DNA of 47,373 bases from Spirochaetia bacterium (GTDB lineage: Bacteria; Spirochaetota; Spirochaetia; CADAEX01), in assembly GCA_017535435.1 (NCBI GenBank), contig JAFXTY010000057.1, forward strand, positions 1 through 47,373, given 5' to 3'. The position numbers and the translations under genes were made by a program. Shown piece by piece: positions 2,727 to 35,474 of the stretch. Each line of letters starts with the position of its first letter. The stretch's first letter is position 1. Under the pieces are notes generated by a model that saw only the letters and a program-made list of their open reading frames with translations, did not search any database and had not been told where the DNA came from.

Positions 2727-4796
2727 TTATGGTTCTGCCACTGTTGTAAGACGCCGGTCTCTGACACGGTTCAAGTAATTTCCACCCACATAAAGCTTTG
2801 TAATGACAGTATTATTCGGGTGAGTATCAAATGCCTGTCTTGTTGCCTTATAATCGCCCATATCATTCAAATATAATTCATTGCTTGGGGCAACCTCATG
2901 ATTATTATCATCACATGTTGCAAAGAGCGCTGTAACAGCAGGCACATTCACATGGGTAGAGAAGTCCCAGGATTTGATAACCGGCGTAAGCAGCGAAGGT
3001 GTCATAGTGTAGCAATGGCTGAACATGTAGAGAATATCTGTCAGATTTTTCAATTCTGTATGGGTCGGGAATGTTATGACTGCAGACTGGCAGCGGTCAA
3101 ACATTCTGTTCATTGTTGTGACTTTGGAGAAGTCCCAGCCGCTCAAGTCCAATGCCTGCACGTAGCTCGGAGCACCTGCTCCGTAGCATGCAAACATAGA
3201 TGACATATCGGTTACTTTTGAAGTGTTGAAGCCTGATACATTCAGTACAGTAAGATTGCTGTTGGAGCACAGGTAGAACATATGACTCATATTTGTAACC
3301 TTTGAGGTATCAAGACCGCTGACATCCAGACTTCTGATATTCATCTTCTTTGTAGCCGGTTGTTTTCCTTCAAGATCAGTACTTGAGAACATGTAGGACA
3401 TATCTGTCACATTGGCAGTATTAAAGTAAACAAACTTTCCATTTACTTTATCTGTACTATCCAATACAACCGATGTCAATCCTGTACAGCCGTAGAACAT
3501 ATGGTTCATGTTGGTTACAGCTGATGTATCAATACCTGTCAGGTCGATAGAAGTATACTTGGTCTGCTCCCTGAAGAAATCAGCCATGGAACCTGCCTTG
3601 AACTTGAATGTGTTGCCTACCTGGTCAGAATGCCAGTAGATATGACCATTATCATCATACCAAATTTTAACATTCTTTATTCCAACATACTCCACACCCT
3701 GAGGCCCAACAGCAGACCGGCTGAAGGATGTTACAGGATAAGCATCATACAGAGCATCAACTATATATTTGAAATAAGTGATATTAATATCCGGGTCTAA
3801 ATCTGATGTGAAGGTTGCTTCAAAATTCACCACACCATCAGGCATTGTAAATGAATACAAGTCTCCGCTGATAATAGGAGTGATTGTCTTTGCAGGGGTT
3901 CCCCATGTTATAGAGACATCTTCCAACACGGAGCCGCTCAATTCTTTAACATAGACAGTGACCAGGTCGCCGGCAGCGGCAATTGTGGCATTAGGCTGGA
4001 CAACTCCTTTCTCGTCATCAAAATCCAAATTTATACCATAGATTTTTGGAGTGATGCAGCCCAGCTGCCAGATTCCGTTATCCATGTGGCCGCTTATAAC
4101 TGCCATGGCATCTGCAGGCATAACTACTACTATATTGCCCTCTATATTGCCAGACGAATGGGTCAACTTGAAGTTATAGGTTCCTGGAGCCAAGCCAGAG
4201 AGTGTATCTTCAAATGGATATTTATCAGATGCGCTTGTGGCAGTCACAACAAAAGGACCGCCGGTAGCTGTACCTGTGTAGGAAATGCTCAGAGTATCGT
4301 CCACAGCAGCAGGAGCTGTCACAGATACGCGTACAGAACCTGCCACCGCATTGGTAACCAGCTTGTTGACCAGCACATCAACATTCACAGAAGCGTTTTC
4401 AACATTTGTAACATCAGAGAAACCTTCGTATATAACACTGGAACCATTTTTTATCCGGATTCCGAACACCCAGGGACCAGGGGAATAGTAGCCAATGCTC
4501 ATACCTGCAGAATAGTTTATAGGTATCCAATCTGTAGCCCCATGGATTCTGGATCCGTCCGGAGCCACCCACTGAGGAACAGCATTGTACTGATATGTAA
4601 GGGATGTCCAGTAATCACCGCTTGCTGACACAGCTTTCTGAAGATCTGAGGAATCGCTGTCCACAGTAAGGCATACCTTGACCAGGCCACTGGATTTAGA
4701 AACAGCAGAATCAGATACTGATCCGTTGTCGCAGCCGGTCAGGAGAACAAGAAGAGTTAATAATATTGTAAATATCGATACTATCTTCTTCATCAT
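2727..4796 (-). CDS. BspA-like (DUF285) surface lipoprotein
   Basis: The protein is 689 aa. The lipobox LLTGC gives a lipidated Cys22. Residues ~35-245 form a module shared with the two lipoproteins upstream (SGLVKVCLTVD, IHGATDW, NYSAGMSIGYYSPGPWVF, IYEG, DNGIWQLG). Residues ~380-640 are BspA-type leucine-rich-like repeats of the DUF285 family, with the units VTNMNHMFYGC, VTDMSYMF, LDVSGLDTSKVTNMSHMF and VTTMNRMF. Such proteins are attached to the outer surface and bind host or microbial ligands in oral treponemes and Tannerella. The ATG at 4796 overlaps the stop of the upstream paralog (ATGA), so the two are translationally coupled. Confidence 0.85.
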   Translation of the reverse strand: MMKKIVSIFTILLTLLVLLTGCDNGSVSDSAVSKSSGLVKVCLTVDSDSSDLQKAVSASGDYWTSLTYQYNAVPQWVAPDGSRIHGATDWIPINYSAGMSIGYYSPGPWVFGIRIKNGSSVIYEGFSDVTNVENASVNVDVLVNKLVTNAVAGSVRVSVTAPAAVDDTLSISYTGTATGGPFVVTATSASDKYPFEDTLSGLAPGTYNFKLTHSSGNIEGNIVVVMPADAMAVISGHMDNGIWQLGCITPKIYGINLDFDDEKGVVQPNATIAAAGDLVTVYVKELSGSVLEDVSITWGTPAKTITPIISGDLYSFTMPDGVVNFEATFTSDLDPDINITYFKYIVDALYDAYPVTSFSRSAVGPQGVEYVGIKNVKIWYDDNGHIYWHSDQVGNTFKFKAGSMADFFREQTKYTSIDLTGIDTSAVTNMNHMFYGCTGLTSVVLDSTDKVNGKFVYFNTANVTDMSYMFSSTDLEGKQPATKKMNIRSLDVSGLDTSKVTNMSHMFYLCSNSNLTVLNVSGFNTSKVTDMSSMFACYGAGAPSYVQALDLSGWDFSKVTTMNRMFDRCQSAVITFPTHTELKNLTDILYMFSHCYTMTPSLLTPVIKSWDFSTHVNVPAVTALFATCDDNNHEVAPSNELYLNDMGDYKATRQAFDTHPNNTVITKLYVGGNYLNRVRDRRLTTVAEP

Positions 4797-6874
4797 GGTT
4801 GTATTGTCAGCCTACAGCTCTTTATGTTATTTCCACCGCCTATATACAGGCGAACAACATCTTTAGTCCAATACTCTTCGGCATGGCGATTTCCAAAAGG
4901 TTTTCCATTAGCAGTCATGGTTTTCTCGCGGAAGATATAGTTAGCCGAGTTGTTACTTCCTGGCAATTGGTTCTCGTAGCTTCCAAACAAAGAAGTGTTG
5001 GAATTACCATAAATAGTAGTCTCATAATCAGCATGATTTTCAAATGTCCATGTTGCCACAATTCTTTTAAATGTTGCAGGAGTCAGAGCAAGACACTGGC
5101 TGAACAAATGGTCCATTGTAGTAAGACTTGCAAAGTCGGTCGTTTCCGGGAATATAAAACCTTCATTCATTTGCTCGAGTCGGTCAAACATACTTATCAT
5201 ATTTGTAACGCTTGAGAAATCCCAATTACTCATATCGAGTTCAGTCAGCCGGGAACCATAATTCTCCCAACATGCAAACATATGATCCATGCTGGTTACA
5301 TTTGCAGTTCTGAAACCTGATACATTCAGAATCGTAAGCTTGTAACACATAAAGAACATGTAACTCATATCTGTAACATTGGAAGTATCAAGTCCGCTGA
5401 CATCCACAGCAGCCAAGTTCATCCGAACAGGAGGCTTGCCAGCCAGATCTGCACTGGAGAACATATAGGACATATCTGTCACATTGGTAGTATTGAAGTG
5501 GACAAACTTTCCATTTGCATCCGTTTCTGTATCCAATGTAACTGATGTCAGCCCATAGCAGCCCATGAACATTCCAGACATATTAGTGACAAGAGAAGTA
5601 TCTATACCTGAAAGGTTTATATTTGTAAAAGTACTGCAATTCTTGAAGAAGTTGGCCAAAGACCCGGCTTTGAACCTGAATGTGCCGGCGTCGTTCTTCC
5701 AGCATATTTTATTAAGGCCAGGTTTATACCATAATTTCACACCCTTTGTTTCAAAGTAATCCCCTTCGACTGGGCCGCTATCATAACCAAAGGATGTGGC
5801 ACCAGGATAAGAATTATGCACTAACTTGAACAAAGTTTTGAAAACAATGATATCGATATCTGAGTCCCCACCTGAATATACGGCATTGATAGTTACATCA
5901 TCAGCATCGGGCATCACAAATGTGTACAGACCATTATCCGGAACAATCGGGTTTATGGAACCACCGGTCCATGTCACGCTTACATTGCCCTGAAGCACGT
6001 TGCCTGCAAGAGGATCCAAATGGAAAGAAACCTTGTCTCCTGCCGCAGCAGAAGTAAGATTGATCTGATAACTGCATCCTGTCAAGTTCAGAGTTATAGG
6101 ATGAACTTTTACAGTTATGTATCCAAGCTGCCAAATGCCATTATCAAGATGGCCTGTGATCTCGGCCCTCTCTCCGGCACGGAGGTCTACACCTATAGCT
6201 GCACCAGCGCCAGTAGATGAATGATTCAATGTGAATGTATAGTATCCGGAAGAAAGACTGCTTGCAGTGTAGGTGAATTCTGTGGTGCCGTTGCCAAGCG
6301 GGGTTCCAGAGATAGTCCCGGAAGAGCCGCTTGCTGTACCATGCCAAGCTACAGTCAATGCCTCGGCAGCAACAGTAGGTGCAGTTACAGTTACACTGAC
6401 TGTACCTGATGCCAGCTGTATAAACTTGGCCACCTCAACATTTACAGATGTATGGCCCGAATAAATGCTGGCAGTAGAATTACCTTCGTAAATAAGATTT
6501 AAGCCATACTTTACCTGAACCTCAAAAAGCCATTCACCAGCCGTGAAACTTCCAAGGGATGCAGGAGAACCTGCGCTGCAATTAGGAATAAGTATAAACT
6601 GATCATTTGTAGAGCCGTGAATAGGCCGATTCTGACTCCACTGAGGAGTTGCCTTATAAAAGAATCTCAAGTTGGCCGGATCATAATCGCTGTCCACCGA
6701 AATGCTTTTCTGGCTGGCGGAAGATTTATCTACAGTAAGGGATACATCGACAAGCCCACTGGAATTAGAAGCGGAAGAATCAGACACAGATCCGTTGTCG
6801 CATGCGAGAATGCAGAAAAATACTAATGTTATAAGACAAATGATTGCGCTTATGCTGCTTAATTTCGCCTTCAA
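4793..6874 (-). CDS. BspA-like (DUF285) surface lipoprotein, paralog
   Basis: The protein is 693 aa, with a signal peptide and lipobox CILAC (Cys25). The same N-terminal module is present (GLVDVSLTVD, RPIHGST, SAGSPASLGSFTAGEWLFEVQVK, DNGIWQLGYITVK), followed by DUF285 repeats (VTNMSGMFMGC, NTTNVTDMSYMF, LDTSNVTDMSYMFFMC, VTSMDHMFACW). The two halves are similar to, but clearly diverged from, the downstream paralog. The start codon is TTG at 6874, supported by AGGAG 10 nt upstream; no ATG lies nearby. It forms an operon with the downstream lipoproteins. The role is probably surface adhesion; the ligand is unknown. Confidence 0.85.
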   Translation of the reverse strand: MKAKLSSISAIICLITLVFFCILACDNGSVSDSSASNSSGLVDVSLTVDKSSASQKSISVDSDYDPANLRFFYKATPQWSQNRPIHGSTNDQFILIPNCSAGSPASLGSFTAGEWLFEVQVKYGLNLIYEGNSTASIYSGHTSVNVEVAKFIQLASGTVSVTVTAPTVAAEALTVAWHGTASGSSGTISGTPLGNGTTEFTYTASSLSSGYYTFTLNHSSTGAGAAIGVDLRAGERAEITGHLDNGIWQLGYITVKVHPITLNLTGCSYQINLTSAAAGDKVSFHLDPLAGNVLQGNVSVTWTGGSINPIVPDNGLYTFVMPDADDVTINAVYSGGDSDIDIIVFKTLFKLVHNSYPGATSFGYDSGPVEGDYFETKGVKLWYKPGLNKICWKNDAGTFRFKAGSLANFFKNCSTFTNINLSGIDTSLVTNMSGMFMGCYGLTSVTLDTETDANGKFVHFNTTNVTDMSYMFSSADLAGKPPVRMNLAAVDVSGLDTSNVTDMSYMFFMCYKLTILNVSGFRTANVTSMDHMFACWENYGSRLTELDMSNWDFSSVTNMISMFDRLEQMNEGFIFPETTDFASLTTMDHLFSQCLALTPATFKRIVATWTFENHADYETTIYGNSNTSLFGSYENQLPGSNNSANYIFREKTMTANGKPFGNRHAEEYWTKDVVRLYIGGGNNIKSCRLTIQP

Positions 6875-8736: not shown

Positions 8737-9828
8737 TTATTTTCCCCCGAAAAGAGCCCAGCTGTTGCTGAAGTTCCACTGGAGTCCGATGGTCACATGG
8801 GGCTTAAGATCGAAGTCCTTGATCCAGTCCAGACTTACGTCTGTGGTGAACTGCAGATTCTTATACAAAGTGAGGTCGAAGCCCACCGATGATCTCCAGA
8901 GAAGATAAGTGTTTATACCCTCATCATCATTATAATTTATTTTATACTTAAACCAGGCAGGTCCAAGCATAGTTCTAATATAGAAGTTAGGCTGAAGCTG
9001 CAGAGAGTTCATCCGCCAGTTAAGTCCTGTGCCGAAGAGCACTGTATACATATGGGCATGGTCTGACCTGAACCCCGGGAAATCCTCTTCCACCAGATTG
9101 TCGGGCACCTCTGCTATTCCTGCATCTGCCAGGAGGAACCAGTGAGGCATGAGTGCGAATGTTCCTTCTATATCCCAAGCTGTCTCTCCTGCCCTGATTC
9201 CGATTATATTCCGGCTCTGTCCCGCAGGCATTGTCTTAAAGGTGGAAACAAGTTCTCCTTCCTCGGTCATCCGGGTGCCTGGTACGGAATTGGCCTCATC
9301 CAGCGCCGCCTGTGTCGATGCCACCTTGGCCTCGTACTCCTCTATCCTTGCCAGGGCCTCCTGATATGCTGCCTCGTTCTCTTCCCGCTTCTTCTCAAGC
9401 TGGGCCAGCTGCTCGTTCAGGGCGGCAATCTCTGCCCCTAAAGCTGCCACATCATTACGGAGTTTACCCTCCGAGCTGCTGAGCTCGTTGTTTCTTCCCC
9501 GGAGCCAGCGGTTCTGATCTGCCAGGTCCGAGTTCCGCCGCTCAAGAGCGTCCTTCTCGGCCTTAAGGGCGGTATAATCAAACTCCTGCTGGGCCATCTT
9601 GCGCTCAAGATCCTCCAGCTGGGCACGGAGCTCTGCTATCTGAGCATTCTGAGAGAGGATTATTTCATCGTTTGGGCTGGTGCCGTTCTTGACTGCATTA
9701 TTGTCCATGGTATCCTCGATGATACGTACAGGTGGTGAGTCGTCTTTCTGTCTTGTCGCAATCACTATACCAGCTGCAGCAAGCAGAGCAAGCAGTACAG
9801 CGGCCGCTATAATGACTCCTTTTTTCAT
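8737..9828 (-). CDS. signal-anchored coiled-coil protein with C-terminal beta-barrel-like domain
   Basis: The protein is 363 aa. Residues 4-25 are a hydrophobic signal or anchor segment. Residues ~57-185 form a long heptad-rich coiled coil (IAELRAQLEDLERKMAQQE, then continuous E/K/L/A heptads). Residues ~200-363 look like an outer-membrane barrel: alternating aromatic strands such as WDIEGTFALMPHWFLLADAG, FYIRTMLGPAWFKYKI and VTIGLQWNF. A ~130-residue coil could reach across a periplasm, so the protein may tether the outer membrane. There is no close family recognition. It is transcribed from its own promoter with AGAGG before the ATG. If the signal is cleaved, it would be a barrel with a free coiled-coil arm. 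Confidence 0.6.
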   Translation of the reverse strand: MKKGVIIAAAVLLALLAAAGIVIATRQKDDSPPVRIIEDTMDNNAVKNGTSPNDEIILSQNAQIAELRAQLEDLERKMAQQEFDYTALKAEKDALERRNSDLADQNRWLRGRNNELSSSEGKLRNDVAALGAEIAALNEQLAQLEKKREENEAAYQEALARIEEYEAKVASTQAALDEANSVPGTRMTEEGELVSTFKTMPAGQSRNIIGIRAGETAWDIEGTFALMPHWFLLADAGIAEVPDNLVEEDFPGFRSDHAHMYTVLFGTGLNWRMNSLQLQPNFYIRTMLGPAWFKYKINYNDDEGINTYLLWRSSVGFDLTLYKNLQFTTDVSLDWIKDFDLKPHVTIGLQWNFSNSWALFGGK

Positions 9829-9919
9829 TGGACAATACCTCTAATCGATATATCGGCAGCTTGGTATATATTATCAAGGGAAAAAATAACACAGAAATAA
9901 AAATAAATACCAACAAATA

Positions 9920-9949
9920 ATTATACCTCACTAGAAATATCGTGGTCAA
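9920..9949 (-). promoter_or_regulatory. promoter of the coiled-coil/barrel gene
   Basis: The minus strand reads TTGACC (9949-9944), 18 nt, TATAAT (9925-9920), followed 4 nt later by TGTTGG near the expected start. This leaves a leader of about 85 nt that ends in AGAGG before the ATG. Confidence 0.6.
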
Positions 9950-10050
9950 TAGGCCAAAAGATATCATAAAGAGCCCACCATAATTGTATTCGTTTCTACC
10001 CCCCTTTCTTTTATCGGTAACATTTCACCAACGTTTCCGCCTTACAATAC

Positions 10051-10143
10051 CAACATTACTATACCGTTTCTAAACTGTCAATAGAAACACTGGAGAAATT
10101 TTACATTGTTTTGAAACTTTTTCCTAATTGCTTATATTACAAG
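10051..10143 (+). repeat. 93-bp intergenic repeat, copy 2
   Basis: This is the ungapped counterpart of 1-93. The stem GTTTCT (10066-10071) with AGAAAC (10083-10088) keeps pairing relative to copy 1 by a double change. The end of the repeat (CTTATATTACAAG) lies about 120 nt upstream of the first precursor-peptide gene. Confidence 0.6.
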
Positions 10144-10218
10144 AATATACCCGGAGCCGACCACCGGGAAAACCCGGCATTTCCCCAAGTAATGAGTGAT
10201 CTTTTTCTACTTCTTTCG

Positions 10219-10247
10219 TTGACACTTGGATTTCTATATATTAGATT
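10219..10247 (+). promoter_or_regulatory. promoter of the peptide-precursor array
   Basis: TTGACA (10219-10224) is followed by 17 nt and TAGATT (10242-10247). The expected start is near 10254, just before the GAAAGGGGC ribosome-binding site and the ATG at 10265. Confidence 0.5.
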
Positions 10248-10264
10248 ATGGAAAGGGGCATGAA

Positions 10265-10513
10265 ATGAAAAAGCTTGATTTAAACTCTTTCACAAAAGAG
10301 CAGATTGCCAAAGCAAAGGAGTGCAAGACTCCTGAGGAGCTCATTGAACTGGCTAAGAAAGCAGGCATTGCAATCACAAAGGATCAGGCAGAAGCCTATC
10401 TTGACGAACTTCAGGATGTGAAACTCGACCCAGGAATACTTGAAGGTGTTGCCGGCGGAAAACCCGGAAACAAGTGTTTCAGCTATGAATCGAAATTCAA
10501 AGATCCTTATTGA
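10265..10513 (+). CDS. double-glycine (Nif11-like) leader peptide precursor 1
   Basis: The peptide is 82 aa. Residues 1-65 form a helical leader of Nif11-like type (EQIAKAKECKTPEELIELAK, KKAGIAITKDQAEAYLDELQ) ending in the double-glycine motif EGVAGG (G64-G65). The predicted 17-residue core is KPGNKCFSYESKFKDPY, with one Cys. Leaders of this type direct ribosomally made peptides to modifying enzymes and C39-peptidase transporters. No such enzyme or exporter lies in this window, so processing must be encoded elsewhere if it happens. The ATG at 10265 has GAAAGGGGC upstream; an in-frame TTG at 10226 would overlap the -10 box. Confidence 0.7.
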   Translation: MKKLDLNSFTKEQIAKAKECKTPEELIELAKKAGIAITKDQAEAYLDELQDVKLDPGILEGVAGGKPGNKCFSYESKFKDPY

Positions 10514-10530
10514 TAGGCAGGAGACATGAA

Positions 10531-10697
10531 ATGAAAAAGCTTGATTTAAACTCTTTCACAAAAGAGCAGATTGCCAGGGCTTATCAGGAGGAACTCCAGG
10601 AGCAGAACTGACCCCGGAAGCTCTTGAAAAAATTGCCGGCGGATGGGGAAAAAACGCGGAATCCAAACTTTTGCAAAGATTTATGAAGAAGTATTAA
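10531..10697 (+). pseudogene. degenerate precursor peptide gene 2
   Basis: The first 46 bases match precursor 1, giving MKKLDLNSFTKEQIA. An in-frame loss of about 27 codons then joins this to AYQEELQEQ, and a stop follows at 10609-10611. In the next frame the rest is intact: LTPEALEKIAGG and a core WGKNAESKLLQRFMKKY, ending at 10697. One extra G near 10606 would restore a continuous ~55-residue precursor. So there are two lesions, a deletion and a one-base frameshift. A sequencing error could explain the frameshift but not the deletion. Confidence 0.7.
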
Positions 10698-10720
10698 GTG
10701 GATTATACGAGGAGGTTCAA

Positions 10721-10972
10721 ATGCCAATCGATAAAACAAAGTTGACAAAAGAGATGCTTGAGAAAGCAGCAATGTGTCAGAACGCTGATGATCTGGTTGC
10801 TCTGGCTAAAATCAAAGGTATTGAAATTACAAAGGAAGAGGCCGAGGCTTATCTGGATGAATTAGATGACTTTGAACTGTCCCCAGAAGCCCTTGAAAAT
10901 GTGGCTGGTGGAAAGTTTTTAGGTGGATCTTTTACATCAGATGCTTGCGCAAAGCACGGTCAGGCTTATTGA
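10721..10972 (+). CDS. double-glycine (Nif11-like) leader peptide precursor 3
   Basis: The peptide is 83 aa. The leader (TKEMLEKAAMCQNADDLVAL, AKIKGIEITKEEAEAYLDEL) ends in ENVAGG (G63-G64). The predicted 19-residue core is KFLGGSFTSDACAKHGQAY, with one Cys. Leader and precursor 1 leader are clearly homologous while the cores are unrelated, the usual pattern for peptide-precursor families. The ATG at 10721 is preceded by GAGGAGG at a proper distance. It shares the transcript with the two genes upstream and is followed by a terminator. Confidence 0.7.
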   Translation: MPIDKTKLTKEMLEKAAMCQNADDLVALAKIKGIEITKEEAEAYLDELDDFELSPEALENVAGGKFLGGSFTSDACAKHGQAY

Positions 10973-10982
10973 GGAAACGTCT

Positions 10983-11003
10983 ATGCCAATCGATAAATCA
11001 AAG
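10983..11003 (+). pseudogene. start of a fourth precursor gene, cut off by the terminator
   Basis: The bases after ATG at 10983 repeat the start of precursor 3 (MPIDK, then SK for TK), with a GAGGAAACG site upstream. After seven codons the sequence becomes the terminator stem. This looks like the 5' end of a fourth copy whose body was lost. Confidence 0.55.
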
Positions 11004-11025
11004 CCCCTTAATCGGGGCTTTTTTA
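11001..11025 (+). terminator. intrinsic terminator of the precursor array
   Basis: The stem AAGCCCC (11001-11007) and GGGGCTT (11014-11020) encloses a 6-nt loop and is followed by a T-rich tract (TTTTTTATTTT). Confidence 0.85.
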
Positions 11026-11200
11026 TTTTACAACTTGAGGCTTGAGGATTGTTGTCATTCATTGTTGACACTTGTTTTCAGGAAAAATTGAACCCACCAT
11101 CCGAAAGAGGACTTGGCCTCCGGCCCGCCCCCGGTCGCTTGATCCTCGCACCTGCTCGGCGCTCCCGGGTTTCAAGTCCTCCCTTGGTATGGGCATAAAA
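11026..11200. other. gene-free stretch with tRNA-Leu-like fragments
   Basis: No gene is visible. CCGAAAGAGGACTTG (11101-11115) repeats exactly the 3' end of tRNA-Leu (11230-11244). An inverted copy of its core, CAAGTCCTC, lies at 11173-11181. Between them is a very GC-rich segment. I cannot fold a second complete tRNA here. The pieces may be a decayed tRNA or an attachment-site remnant. Confidence 0.45.
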
Positions 11201-11221
11201 AAACCGGCATAAAGCCGGTTT
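11201..11221 (-). terminator. terminator after tRNA-Leu
   Basis: On the minus strand AAACCGGC, a 5-nt loop and GCCGGTTT are followed by a run of T, six bases after the tRNA end. The stem is A/T flanked on both sides, so it could act in both directions. Confidence 0.8.
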
Positions 11222-11226
11222 TTCTA

Positions 11227-11310
11227 TGCCCGAAAGAGGACTTGAACCTCCATGACCGTGAAGTCACTAGAACCTGAATCTAGCGTGTCTGCCAATTTCA
11301 CCATTCGGGC
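11227..11310 (-). tRNA. tRNA-Leu(CAG)
   Basis: The acceptor arms GCCCGAA and TTCGGGC pair over 7 bp. The anticodon stem CTAGA/TCTAG holds the loop TTCAGGT, giving anticodon CAG. A long variable arm (TGACTTCACGGTCA) is typical of leucine tRNAs, and the T-loop GTTCAAG is present. The discriminator base is A73 and CCA is not encoded. A terminator follows. Confidence 0.95.
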
Positions 11311-11409
11311 GTGAACATACCTATAATAATGGAGCATTGGAATCTTGTCAATAAAAATCACCTTGTTTATTTATAGATAAAATGGTATTTTAAGTTCAAA
11401 GGAATATGA

Positions 11410-12228
11410 ATGGGTATTAAGGTTCTGTTTATAGGCGAGATTGTCGGCAAGTCGGGAGTTTTCTGCGTCAAGAAGCTCCTGCCTAAGCTCAAGGAAGAGT
11501 ATGCTCTGGACTTTGTCATCGCCGCAAGCGAAGGAGCCACCGGAGGCTTCGGTATAGGGAAGACCCACTCCATCTATCTGCGCAAGCTTGGCATCGATGT
11601 CCTTACATCCGGAGAGAAGATCTTCTTCAAGAAGGATATCGTGGAGCACCTTCCGAAGGCACCCTGGCACCTAAGGCCAATCAACTTCCCTTACAACTGT
11701 CCTGGCCGGGGATGGAGGATCTACACTGTGGGCGACAAGAAGATTGCTGTCATCAATATCCTGGGCAACTCAGGCTTCACCCGCACCCATCTGAACAATC
11801 CCTTCCTTATCCTTCCGGAGCTTGCCGCAAAGGCCAAGGCCGAGACCCCGATAGTGATCGTGGACTTCCATGCCTCCACCACTGCCGAGAAGAAGACTAT
11901 GTTCTACATGATGGATGGCAAGGTGAGCGCGGTGATAGGCACCCACACCAAAGCCCTCACTGCCGACAGCAAGGTGCTCCCCGGCGGCACTGCCGTGATA
12001 TGCGACTCGGGCCGCACAGGCAGCCTCAACTCTGTGGGCGGCCTTGAGCCTGAGATTGAAATCAAGAAATATATGACCCAACTGCCCGAGCGCTCAAAGG
12101 AGTGCTGGGAGAATCTGGAGCTCCAGGGCGTGGTCCTGGACATAGACCCGGAAAGCGGCAAGGCCCTCTCCATAGAGCCTATCCGCAGAAGCTGCCCCTT
12201 TGAGCAAGGAGAGAACACCGATGTATGA
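11410..12228 (+). CDS. YmdB-family metallophosphoesterase homologue with altered active site
   Basis: The protein is 272 aa, the full length of the YmdB/TIGR00282 family, whose Bacillus member is a metal-dependent 2',3'-cyclic-nucleotide phosphodiesterase. The fold landmarks are kept (FIGEIVGKSG, RPINFP, VIVDFH, GTHT, TADSKVLPGGTA). Several expected metal or catalytic residues are not: Asp of GD is E10, Asn of GEN is G42, GNH has become GEK (E69, K70), Glu after DFHA is S156, and the second His of GTHTH is K181. E41, H154 and H179 remain. It may have a different activity or be catalytically dead. The ATG at 11410 follows AAAGGA. The rseC gene overlaps by 8 nt. Confidence 0.75.
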   Translation: MGIKVLFIGEIVGKSGVFCVKKLLPKLKEEYALDFVIAASEGATGGFGIGKTHSIYLRKLGIDVLTSGEKIFFKKDIVEHLPKAPWHLRPINFPYNCPGRGWRIYTVGDKKIAVINILGNSGFTRTHLNNPFLILPELAAKAKAETPIVIVDFHASTTAEKKTMFYMMDGKVSAVIGTHTKALTADSKVLPGGTAVICDSGRTGSLNSVGGLEPEIEIKKYMTQLPERSKECWENLELQGVVLDIDPESGKALSIEPIRRSCPFEQGENTDV

Positions 12229-32347: not shown

Positions 32348-35300
32348 TTATTCTTCGGCAACATTCTTAACACCAAATTCTAGTTTGATTCTTAGTTCAG
32401 TATGTTTTTGATTTTTGAAAGCCAAATATTCCATATACTTTTTGTACATAATCTTTTTTATATATTTTTCCATATATTCGTAATCTGGATTACCTGAAGA
32501 ATTAATTGGCAACATAATATTTTGAGCTTTCATCCGTTTTTCATTGAATTTATATGCATATAAAAACTTATTCTTTTGCTGAAGAATATTTACTTTCATG
32601 AATAAAAGAGAATATTTGTTATCTGGCCAATGTTTTAAATGAAATTTTTTTACATCATCAGAAAAAATACATTCGTATGGGTGATAAAAGTTTTCAACAA
32701 CACTTCCATTATAATTTACACCAAGGACATTTCTATCAAGCGAATTATTATTGTTTGAAACAAAGTTAGTTATTCCATTGTTTGAATCCGAAGCTCCAAT
32801 AAAAGGTCTATTACCAGTTTGCATATTTGAAACAGTCAATCTTTTTCCAGAACTTATTTTAAAAATATCTATTAGTTTAAATTTATCCCATTCTTTTTTA
32901 TCAAGATTATCTGTTATTTGATTCTCGGGTGAAAAGCATTCTCTTATACGCTTTAATGCAAATTCATAATACTCTTTGTTTTTCTGTTCTTCCATTCCTC
33001 TTATATAAGATTCAATAAAATCGTGGTCTATCTCACCCCCTGAGGATATTGGAAGCATTATTTTCAATTTATCTGCAAATTTTTGTCTAAACTGTTTTCC
33101 ATAAGAAAATTTTGATGAGTTCATATTTATCATTTGAACAATAAATTTTTTTAGTGATTCGTTTATTTTATTATTTTGAAAGAAATAAATATTATCATCA
33201 CCTGTGCATTCATAATTGTGATAAAAAGAGTGCCCAAACATATCCACGGTTATTGACTTTGAAAATAAAGGCATTTCATTATTTTCAATAAAACTACTAA
33301 CACCTTGACTTTCCTCTGTTGCTGTTAAAAGTGGAATAGTCCCTGTTTTTCGATTTTGCTTTGTAAGTCTTACACCATGATAATTTTTAAACAAAGTCGA
33401 AAGATTAAATTCTTTCCATTTTCTACTTTCTAGCAAGTCTTGAAAGTTTTTTTTTACTACTTCTGGACTTTTATCATCTTCAAAAAGATACTTCCGACCT
33501 TGCATAATCATGCTGAATTCGAAAGTCAGATAATCTCCAACAGTTTTTTCAAAATCCTTATCTGTTGGGATTTCATCATTAAAATAATAGAAGCTATGAA
33601 GCCATTCATCATCAGCAGTAATTGTTGTTTTCACACAGAATTTTGTCGGTGCCTCGATTCTATCAAACCAAACATCAAGTAAGTGCTGTTTTTTATCTTT
33701 TGCAGCCTCCGTTTCCAAAAGACCTATATGCGGAGCAACTTTAAAGCCATCGTCTTCAAAATTGATAAACTTACATACCTGATCTTTCGGATGTGGTTGA
33801 CCACTTGTAAATACAGCAATACAAGGAATCACGCCAATTCCATAAAATGTATCTTTTTGAAGCATAATTACACCATCAAGGGTGTGTTTTTTAAGAATTG
33901 ATTCTTTTATTGACTGTTCTTCTTTTGTTTTCCCAGTCATAGAACTCTGTGGGACTATAACTGCACATTTTGCGTTAGGCAGCAATGAGTCCAAGAGATG
34001 TTCTGTAAAAGCAATTTCATACATTCCTGTATTGTTTTTCCCTTGAGAATATGGAGGATTCAGCATTCCAACAGTTGCCCTAAAATCAGTTTGTAATTGT
34101 TTCGGCTTTTTCATAAGAAAATCGTCACAATGAAGATTACTTTTCCCATCACCGCGTAGAATCATATTTGTAGTGGCAACAGTAAACATATCTGGTCGCA
34201 GTTCTATACCAAATAGTTGATTTTTTCTGATATTCTGTTTTTCTGAGTTGCTTTTAGCTTTAGAAAGCATTGCATGAAGAGCTGCCACAAGGAAGCCACC
34301 TGTTCCACAGCAAGGGTCAAAAATTCTATCTGTCGTTTTTACATCAAGTAAATCACAGAACAATTCTGTGATATGTCGTGGGGTCAATACAATTCCTAAA
34401 GTCTGTCCACTTCCCCCGGAATACCTCATAAATTCGCCATAAAAACGGCCAAGATAATCTTCTGAAGTTCTTGTGTATTTAATAGATTTATAAAGTTTTT
34501 CATCCAAGAATCTTGAAAAGAATTTTAAGGGAGTTTCGCCAAGAGCAGGATTTTTTTCATTAAGTTTAGTACTGTCTTTAATAATAGAGAATTGTGATAG
34601 AATCTTATCTATCTTAGTTACAGGTGATAAATCTGTCCGTTTAAAACTGGACTCAATAGCATTATATATTTTCTGGCCATCGGTTGTAACTGAATCTGCA
34701 TTCAAAGAATCGATAGAAAAATTTCCATTATCACGTTCTCTAAGAGCAAGAAGTATCCCAGAAACAACAAGGGGCTTTTCCTCATCTTTTATATTTCCGT
34801 AGTTTCTTAAATGCTCATGCAGTTCTTTTGCATCAGAAAGTAGTTCCGCAAGTTCTTTTTCCTTATCACTTGATTCGTTTAAAACATCGCGAAGATAATA
34901 TTCATCTATATTCTTTTCATTAAACGAGATAAACGATTCAACATCCTCAAGAGTATCAAAAACATTTAATCGATCATCAACAAAAATTGGAGTTATCCTA
35001 TGCTTTCTCTCATTACCAGAAATACCGAACGCAAAAACTTTCTTATAGGAGGTATTCAGGACTAGATGTTTAGCATAAAACAGGGCTCCATTTACTGCAT
35101 AATCAGTAACATCTTTTGTCTCTAGACCGATAAGCCCATCAGAATTATGTTTAATATGATTACAGATAGAAGCTTTGTCCTCTATAACAAGGATGAAGTC
35201 TTTTACAATGCCAACATATTCTGGATACCCTACTTTTCCTGTCCTTCGCTTGCTGGCAGTTTTTAGTGCGTCGTTTATCTCTTTAATCGTGCTTCCCTTT

Positions 35301-35374
35301 GCTTCAAGTTCCAACCCAGCTTGTTTTAGCAAGTCATGAACCCATAAATCAGTAGAAGCTTCTTTCCTCGGCAT
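32348..35374 (-). CDS. single-chain restriction-modification enzyme (nuclease, N6-adenine methylase, two target-recognition domains)
   Basis: The protein is 1008 aa. The N-terminus has a PD-(D/E)XK-type pattern (PEY, then D59, and E65-D66-K67 in VIEDK). The methylase core has motif I DPCCGTGGF (~353-361) and motif IV NPPY (~439-442). The last ~350 residues hold two type I S-subunit-like recognition domains, each opening with W..F.L..lF and G.RLT and each closing with LPI(S/N)SSG and D(H/Y). This layout matches type IIB/IIG (BcgI-like) enzymes. The ATG at 35374 is preceded by AGGAA and a TATAAT; a TTG at 35446 is an alternative. The gene is AT-rich, unlike the flanking core genes, which suggests acquisition by transfer. 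A divergent XRE gene is adjacent. Confidence 0.85.
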   Translation of the reverse strand: MPRKEASTDLWVHDLLKQAGLELEAKGSTIKEINDALKTASKRRTGKVGYPEYVGIVKDFILVIEDKASICNHIKHNSDGLIGLETKDVTDYAVNGALFYAKHLVLNTSYKKVFAFGISGNERKHRITPIFVDDRLNVFDTLEDVESFISFNEKNIDEYYLRDVLNESSDKEKELAELLSDAKELHEHLRNYGNIKDEEKPLVVSGILLALRERDNGNFSIDSLNADSVTTDGQKIYNAIESSFKRTDLSPVTKIDKILSQFSIIKDSTKLNEKNPALGETPLKFFSRFLDEKLYKSIKYTRTSEDYLGRFYGEFMRYSGGSGQTLGIVLTPRHITELFCDLLDVKTTDRIFDPCCGTGGFLVAALHAMLSKAKSNSEKQNIRKNQLFGIELRPDMFTVATTNMILRGDGKSNLHCDDFLMKKPKQLQTDFRATVGMLNPPYSQGKNNTGMYEIAFTEHLLDSLLPNAKCAVIVPQSSMTGKTKEEQSIKESILKKHTLDGVIMLQKDTFYGIGVIPCIAVFTSGQPHPKDQVCKFINFEDDGFKVAPHIGLLETEAAKDKKQHLLDVWFDRIEAPTKFCVKTTITADDEWLHSFYYFNDEIPTDKDFEKTVGDYLTFEFSMIMQGRKYLFEDDKSPEVVKKNFQDLLESRKWKEFNLSTLFKNYHGVRLTKQNRKTGTIPLLTATEESQGVSSFIENNEMPLFSKSITVDMFGHSFYHNYECTGDDNIYFFQNNKINESLKKFIVQMINMNSSKFSYGKQFRQKFADKLKIMLPISSGGEIDHDFIESYIRGMEEQKNKEYYEFALKRIRECFSPENQITDNLDKKEWDKFKLIDIFKISSGKRLTVSNMQTGNRPFIGASDSNNGITNFVSNNNNSLDRNVLGVNYNGSVVENFYHPYECIFSDDVKKFHLKHWPDNKYSLLFMKVNILQQKNKFLYAYKFNEKRMKAQNIMLPINSSGNPDYEYMEKYIKKIMYKKYMEYLAFKNQKHTELRIKLEFGVKNVAEE

Positions 35375-35474
35375 AAATGAAAAAATTCCTATTAAATACC
35401 AAAATTGATTATATTCAATTATTGTATATATTTTGAACTTTTTCAAGTTTTTATTTTAAATTTGAAAATATCCG

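Follow-up and report, generated by a model that had tools for sequence, protein, structure and literature searches.

Intact double-glycine precursor genes in a rumen spirochaete: probable members of a dispersed radical-SAM peptide library with exchangeable leaders and cores

Two small intact genes, designated P1 and P3, were found in a 47,373-nucleotide contig of a Spirochaetia bacterium (the window, meaning the whole stretch of DNA that was analysed). They very probably belong to a dispersed, prochlorosin-like combinatorial RiPP library, in which radical SAM enzymes would take the place of LanM and one distant machinery would serve all precursors. The genome that carries the window (G000) is a fragmented metagenome-assembled genome (MAG) of 1.70 Mb (99% complete, 0.25% contamination). 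Its precursor set comprises about 25 peptides spread genome-wide, to which the window contributes two working-looking genes and two remnants. This share of the library is ordinary; the interest of the library lies in the record of leader/core shuffling and in the Hint-bearing members encoded elsewhere. The precursor unit in the window contained the following features:

10219-10247, + strand: sigma-70-like promoter 5' of P1 (TTGACA-17-TAGATT, consensus scan)
10265-10513, + strand: P1, intact precursor of 82 aa with a leader ending in VAGG and a 17-aa core
10265-10459, + strand: P1 leader, KLDLNS-type, Nif11-like, VAGG at its end
10460-10510, + strand: P1 core KPGNKCFSYESKFKDPY, 17 aa, single core Cys
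10531-10697, + strand: P2, broken copy with an internal leader deletion and a frameshift (pairwise alignment, three-frame translation)
10721-10972, + strand: P3, intact precursor of 83 aa with a leader extending to VAGG and a 19-aa core
10721-10912, + strand: P3 leader, MPID-type, VAGG at its end
10913-10969, + strand: P3 core KFLGGSFTSDACAKHGQAY, 19 aa, single core Cys
10984-11004, + strand: stub of a further precursor, ATG and MPIDKSK (7 codons), reading into the terminator
11000-11021, + strand: intrinsic terminator that closes the unit

P1 and P3 were each preceded by a ribosome-binding site (GAGGAGG for P3) and had leaders of about 65 residues. The promoter sequence matched the consensus at 10 of 12 positions and was considered weak, because the scan yielded about as many sites as chance predicts. 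When the six-frame translation of the window was searched with a leader profile derived from the members that this genome encodes, P1 and P3 among them, these two genes scored E-values of 2.3e-31 and 1.5e-34, respectively, and the next-best match was P2, at 0.004. A chance origin of the P1 and P3 reading frames was ruled out by these scores. P3 exceeded the cut-off of TIGR03798, the NCBI model of Nif11-like leader RiPP precursors (33.7 versus 32.3 bits). P1, at 22.0 bits, remained below it, but, judging from its recovery of P3 in a sequence search (51% identity, E 1.8e-16), P1 is clearly homologous to the Nif11-like leader family; other members of the precursor family scored above the cut-off of the Pfam model Nif11. 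The leaders of P1 and P3 represent two different classes, KLDLNS-type and MPID-type, both recognized in the family at large.

The original prediction had described two intact and two broken precursors, all four with the leader motifs EAYLDEL and VAGG and, in the intact pair, cores of 17-19 residues with a single Cys. The core lengths and Cys counts were borne out, as were the integrity of P1 and P3 and the damage to P2. The first approximately 50 nt of P2 are identical to the P1 gene, most of its leader has been deleted, and its shifted frame ends in ELTPEALEKIAGG and WGKNAESKLLQRFMKKY, the latter following a residual IAGG. Instead of EAYLDEL and VAGG, P2 reads AYQEEL and IAGG. The supposed fourth precursor turned out to be the 7-codon stub at 10984, which carries neither motif. 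An identical stub, consisting of MPIDKSKPLNRGFF and a terminator, lies 3' of precursors at other loci and in other species, and the stub of the window also follows NCYSDL(S/T)GPWDT precursors in G000 (L028) and in the related species G002 (L079).

A search of the whole MAG with P1 retrieved 31 leader matches on about nine to ten contigs, the best of them outside the window at an E-value of 2.3e-26. The array had been regarded as an orphan; the search for further leaders that had been proposed with it instead showed it to be one outpost among about 31 matches. In an alignment of 23 leaders, GG was invariant and ended the conserved region, with the variable core starting next; median identity among paralogues in G000 was 66% for leaders and 17% for cores. 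Contigs C65 (6.4 kb) and C58 (3.6 kb) consisted almost wholly of precursor and maturation genes. Repeats terminate many contigs of G000, and the ends of contigs C78, C39 and C31 fall within precursor or maturation genes, which suggests that such repeats interrupted the assembly. Isolated precursors, with no recognised maturation gene in the stretch examined, occupied at least six further loci outside the window.

Leader matches occurred in six of 98 genomes sampled from the genus, family and class, and all six (G000 and G002-G006) belong to one rumen Spirochaetia genus; the named relatives are MAGs of yak, goat and buffalo forestomach and MAG RUG13243. The C39 peptidase-ABC component of an exporter (TIGR03796) was above cut-off in five of these six and in no other of 41 genomes, the copy in the sixth (G005) ending at a contig end. 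With the N-terminal 70 residues of a radical SAM (rSAM)/SPASM maturase as query, exactly the same six were recovered among 21 genomes searched. G001, a seventh species of the genus, contained no precursors, no TIGR03796 exporter and no rSAM maturase. Precursors, C39 exporter and rSAM maturase thus co-occur in the six species and, among the relatives searched, not outside the genus.

Carriage by viruses or plasmids as a route of precursor spread was not supported. In the IMG/VR scan the precursors had no close copy, and two remote relatives (49-50%) were retrieved; with one Hint-bearing precursor as query, a phage collection gave zero matches and a plasmid collection only the Hint domain of a Selenomonas adhesin. 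On one IMG/VR contig (L162:1-3504), a related precursor with a core starting ECYFHNSC adjoins genes for a pseudo-rSAM/SPASM protein and a DUF7005 protein, a similar cassette outside the genus.

Searches spanning the whole genome placed no C39 domain, LanC, YcaO or precursor-linked rSAM family member in the window, in agreement with the earlier claim that no modification enzyme, C39 peptidase or exporter lies within 47 kb. The original prediction had staked itself on a C39 exporter elsewhere in the genome, and one was found: G000 encodes an NHLM exporter comprising the NHLM HlyD (TIGR03794, 165.7 bits versus a cut-off of 156.2), the C39 peptidase-ABC (TIGR03796, 996 versus 853.3) and a second ABC protein (TIGR03797, 760.4 versus 709.4), as well as TolC. 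Contigs C28 and C46 jointly encode a MATE transporter, a B12-binding radical SAM protein, HlyD, ABC1, ABC2, a periplasmic binding protein, TolC and a pseudo-rSAM/SPASM protein; their near-identical HlyD ends probably reflect one locus divided by assembly. This order, from MATE to pseudo-rSAM, is kept in G002-G004 and, as far as the contigs extend, in G005 and G006; a match to the B12-binding radical SAM protein was not seen in G002. The pseudo-rSAM/SPASM protein (L033:8104-9711, L131:17442-19148, L162:776-2578), a conserved member of the cluster, has SPASM-like cysteines at its C-terminus and gave no Radical_SAM match above the cut-off.

Enzymes that could act on the precursors were also encoded away from the window. 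G000 contains at least three radical-SAM/SPASM maturase genes, situated amid precursors on C65 and C58 and at the end of C28; on C31 a truncated copy adjoins a precursor. DUF7005 proteins, which carry an HExxH motif, and FAD oxidoreductases were found alongside these maturases. The precursor-adjacent enzyme on C65 scored best with TIGR04463 (156 bits), CefB (153), Clo7bot (128), PapB (106) and DynA (106) and fell into no characterised equivalog family (PapB 105.7 versus 340; TIGR04463 156.4 versus 525; cut-offs ranged from 340 to 600 bits). Since these scores lie far beneath the equivalog cut-offs, the C65 maturase appears to form a separate branch whose chemistry cannot be read from the models. 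One DUF7005 protein (L112:4473-5339) starts with 25 residues of a precursor leader and is apparently a leader/enzyme fusion that arose through recombination.

The suggestion that a remote enzyme and exporter act on several such loci is consistent with this gene content. As to the kind of enzyme, the earlier proposal of LanM-type or radical SAM proteins held for the latter, the radical SAM/SPASM maturases being the candidates. Prochlorosin-style class II lanthipeptides, in which a LanM would act on the Nif11 leader, share with the present system the leader family, the scattered precursors and the core diversity (PMC2887384, PMC10783134). This route is nevertheless highly improbable here, as a search for LANC_like (PF05147) gave no match at E 0.1 in the 99% complete genome. 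YcaO-dependent maturation to TOMM/azole peptides was likewise rejected, PF02624 giving no match at E 0.01 in G000.

In the reading favoured here, the Nif11-type leader would be read by common radical SAM/SPASM maturases encoded elsewhere, likely partnered by the pseudo-rSAM/SPASM protein, DUF7005 and the FAD oxidoreductase. Once the core has been modified, the NHLM exporter would cut behind GG with its C39 domain, and the core would exit via ABC1/ABC2-HlyD-TolC. The mature products of P1 and P3 may act as bacteriocin-like compounds or as signals.

Further support came from the cores, which the original prediction had called unrelated. C-[YFW] was present in 37 of 65 mutually dissimilar cores drawn from the six species, against 14.1 expected when residues were shuffled inside each core, a count reached in none of 5000 shuffles. 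In 23 cores another Cys lay a few residues beyond this motif (5.1 expected), and the reverse order, [YFW]-C, was depleted. The cores thus share a signature, and C-[YFW] would be the likely target of modification. P1 contains it (KCFS) and P3 does not. Mean core charge was -0.5 behind MPID-type and +1.6 behind KLDLNS-type leaders (Mann-Whitney p 1.5e-5, with related sequences non-independent and a few sequences mis-sorted by the simple pattern used to assign leader classes).

The same cores bear on the possibility that the peptides are unmodified class II-type bacteriocins or pheromones, with a leader serving the C39 exporter only, Cys residues forming disulfides and the rSAM enzymes acting on other substrates. 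A double-glycine leader and a C39 exporter would suffice for such a route and, while 55 of the 65 dissimilar cores contain Cys, a quarter have a single one and ten have none. Conservation of C-[YFW], rather than of Cys pairing alone, argues against it, as do the rSAM/SPASM genes that lie inside precursor arrays and match their species distribution exactly; it is accordingly given only a minor chance. Weighed against the library reading itself were the sub-cut-off TIGR03798 score of P1, the lack of C-[YFW] in P3, the failure to find orthologues of the P1 and P3 cores and the fragmentation of the MAG.

Variation among cores, which had been read together with leader conservation as a sign of an active secreted-peptide system, was found to stem largely from exchange of leader and core modules, and many individual short cores are near-identical between species. 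The P3 leader is 93% identical in DNA to that of a gene on contig C119 of G006 whose core is GAKARLFGCSGVY, the identity ending near the GG codons, and in G003 this same core sits behind a KLDLNS leader. Seven pairs, one of them Hint-bearing, combined the same core with leaders of different classes. Conversely, 17 of 42 leader pairs with at least 88% DNA identity had cores less than 50% alike, and cores common to several species can be DNA-identical while their leaders differ by 16-22%. Because the same core occurs on different leaders and near-identical leaders precede unlike cores, leader and core appear to be exchangeable modules. New products would arise when recombination sets existing leaders before different cores, and also when short precursor units, some of them ending in a terminator, are scattered round the chromosome.

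Positive selection is not claimed for short cores, for which between-species pairs gave a dN/dS of 0.57 on few sites, or for Hint-associated cores, for which four pairs gave 17 nonsynonymous and 1 synonymous changes, too few and not independent. Relative to its nearest relative, on C119 of G006, the P3 leader showed a pS of 0.245 and a pN of 0.020 (10 synonymous to 3 nonsynonymous changes; Fisher p 1.1e-5), and the P1 leader, compared with its own nearest relative, a pS of 0.38 and a pN of 0.125 (p 7e-4), a pattern that indicates purifying selection on both.

The unit lies on an island delimited as follows:

10151-11100, no strand: island with the precursor unit; at the orthologous site of G005 both flanks are present with only about 75 bp between them
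11227-11310, - strand: tRNA-Leu(CAG) (ARAGORN), flanking landmark of the island

In BLASTN of window positions 9601-11500 against the G005 locus L154, positions 9701-10150 aligned with 1-448 (91%) and 11101-11500 with 524-916 (88%). In G006, too, little DNA separates the tRNA side from the OMP-like gene, and no leader match was present at this locus in the stretches examined from G002-G006. Based on these near-adjacent flanks and the lack of leader matches, the unit is specific to the window's species among those examined; such an island would reflect either gain here or loss elsewhere. Mis-binning of the contig was disfavoured, because the genes on either side of the array match congeneric contigs with 84-91% DNA identity. 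The 3' end of the tRNA-Leu is partly repeated beside the intact gene (11090-11245), and these repeats are found at the empty site of G005 as well. The region upstream of the OMP-like gene (8737-9828), at 10002-10149, recurs at 81-89% identity at numerous further sites of the sister genomes and is possibly a common promoter region of a surface-protein family. Elsewhere, the window encodes two neighbouring large proteins with DUF285 repeats (2727-6874, - strand) and a type I restriction-modification protein in which one ORF combines N6-methylase and specificity domains (32348-35446).

With two of its four members broken, the local array could be part of a decaying island, a stranded and unexpressed or unused fragment of an otherwise functional family. 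The damaged P2 and stub, the absence of the island from the corresponding site of sister species and the orphan status of the P1 and P3 cores are all compatible with such a relic. Against it, P1 and P3 are intact, with ribosome-binding sites, GG sites and a closing terminator, and substitutions in their leaders are enriched for synonymous change; a relic is therefore regarded as unlikely, though less so than the unmodified-peptide route.

In five of the six producing species, some precursors encoded off the window pass from the core directly into a Hint domain starting CF(A/T)(G/C)DS:

L023:423-1199, - strand: GG-leader precursor with Hint domain
L024:6172-6927, - strand: GG-leader precursor with Hint domain
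L030:493-1272, - strand: GG-leader precursor with Hint domain
L080, L085, L091, L103 and L112: further GG-leader precursors with Hint domains

Their cores, 12-21 residues long, span exactly the interval from the GG cleavage site to the catalytic Cys of the Hint domain, and some of these precursors end in a second leader-like helical piece. Hint_2 (PF13403) scored 32.7-33.3 bits against a cut-off of 28.4. Modelled with AlphaFold, a full-length Hint precursor gave a poor structure (pLDDT 59); the model of the Hint part alone reached a pLDDT of 70.6, and its top structural matches were all inteins, BIL or hedgehog domains (Z 9.4-10). The Cys1 nucleophile was invariant (11/11). Block B read TESQ in all 11, aligned with TKDH of Npu DnaE, so that TxxH was absent; also absent was the C-terminal His-Asn, which splicing inteins have together with a +1 nucleophile, the domain ending in GIATEGYF or GIAAEGYF.

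In hedgehog proteins and most inteins, the initial step is aided by the His of block B. Loss of this residue speaks against an active Hint domain, and the invariance of Cys1 speaks in favour of one. A giant adhesin of Selenomonas ruminantium (plasmid pSRC1) ends in a Hint module that is 62% identical over 143 aa and also has TESQ, which argues for a common subtype rather than local decay; transfer of the module between rumen bacteria is plausible. The adhesin Hint (L164:2797-3435, NC_017078.1 near 110740-111174; TESQ, GYFTRGERGL) is followed by genes for an FAD-dependent oxidoreductase and a transporter.

Tentatively, the Hint domain, perhaps acquired from rumen Selenomonas adhesins, might serve as a built-in C-terminal activator, an N-S acyl shift turning the core into a thioester without a separate enzyme. 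After GG cleavage, ring closure by the free N-terminus or by a side chain of the core, or coupling of the core to another molecule, could follow; this would be a RiPP precursor bearing its own C-terminal activation module, and these precursors offer a directly testable case. An alternative in which the Hint-bearing peptides are the dedicated products, while the same recombination yields the short precursors as by-products or decoys, is improbable: their occurrence in five of six producing species with an invariant Cys1 would fit, but short precursors are far commoner, individual short cores are conserved between species, and no Hint-bearing precursor was seen in G004.

The Hint domains resemble those of hedgehog proteins, BIL domains and inteins in their Hint_2 score, structural matches and Cys1 nucleophile, and differ in following directly on a GG-leader core, in having TESQ for TxxH and in lacking the C-terminal His-Asn. 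With the Selenomonas pSRC1 adhesin they share TESQ and a GYFTxGERGL ending; there, however, the module terminates an adhesin of about 5000 aa, whereas in the spirochaete precursors a leader-core peptide of about 83 residues comes before it. Searches of the open-access literature yielded no account of RiPP precursors with Hint domains, and one may exist elsewhere; nor was a rumen spirochaete rSAM-type precursor library found described in the open-access literature searched.

The maturases resemble known rSAM/SPASM RiPP maturases (TIGR04463, CefB, Clo7bot, PapB, DynA), the best-scoring relatives of the C65 enzyme, which nevertheless lies far beneath every equivalog cut-off. With the NHLP/N11P systems (Haft et al., 2010; PMC2887384) the library has in common the three-gene exporter, the TIGR03798-type leader, paralogous expansion and exporter-precursor co-occurrence. 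Those systems pair with cyclodehydratases or LanM, whereas here neither YcaO nor LanC is present and rSAM/SPASM, pseudo-rSAM/SPASM and DUF7005 proteins are. Like the prochlorosins and synechococsins (ProcA/SyncA, ProcM/SyncM; PMC10783134), the system combines a Nif11-type GG leader, tens of scattered precursors, variable cores and a common machinery. It differs in having radical SAM/SPASM enzymes and no LanM, in leader/core exchange between species, in Hint-bearing members and in its host, a member of the Spirochaetia rather than a cyanobacterium. The 'one machine, many scattered precursors' arrangement would thereby extend from LanM and prochlorosins to radical-SAM systems of uncultured rumen spirochaetes, with a natural record of shuffling (one core on two leader classes, one leader on two cores) of the kind that peptide engineers attempt by design.
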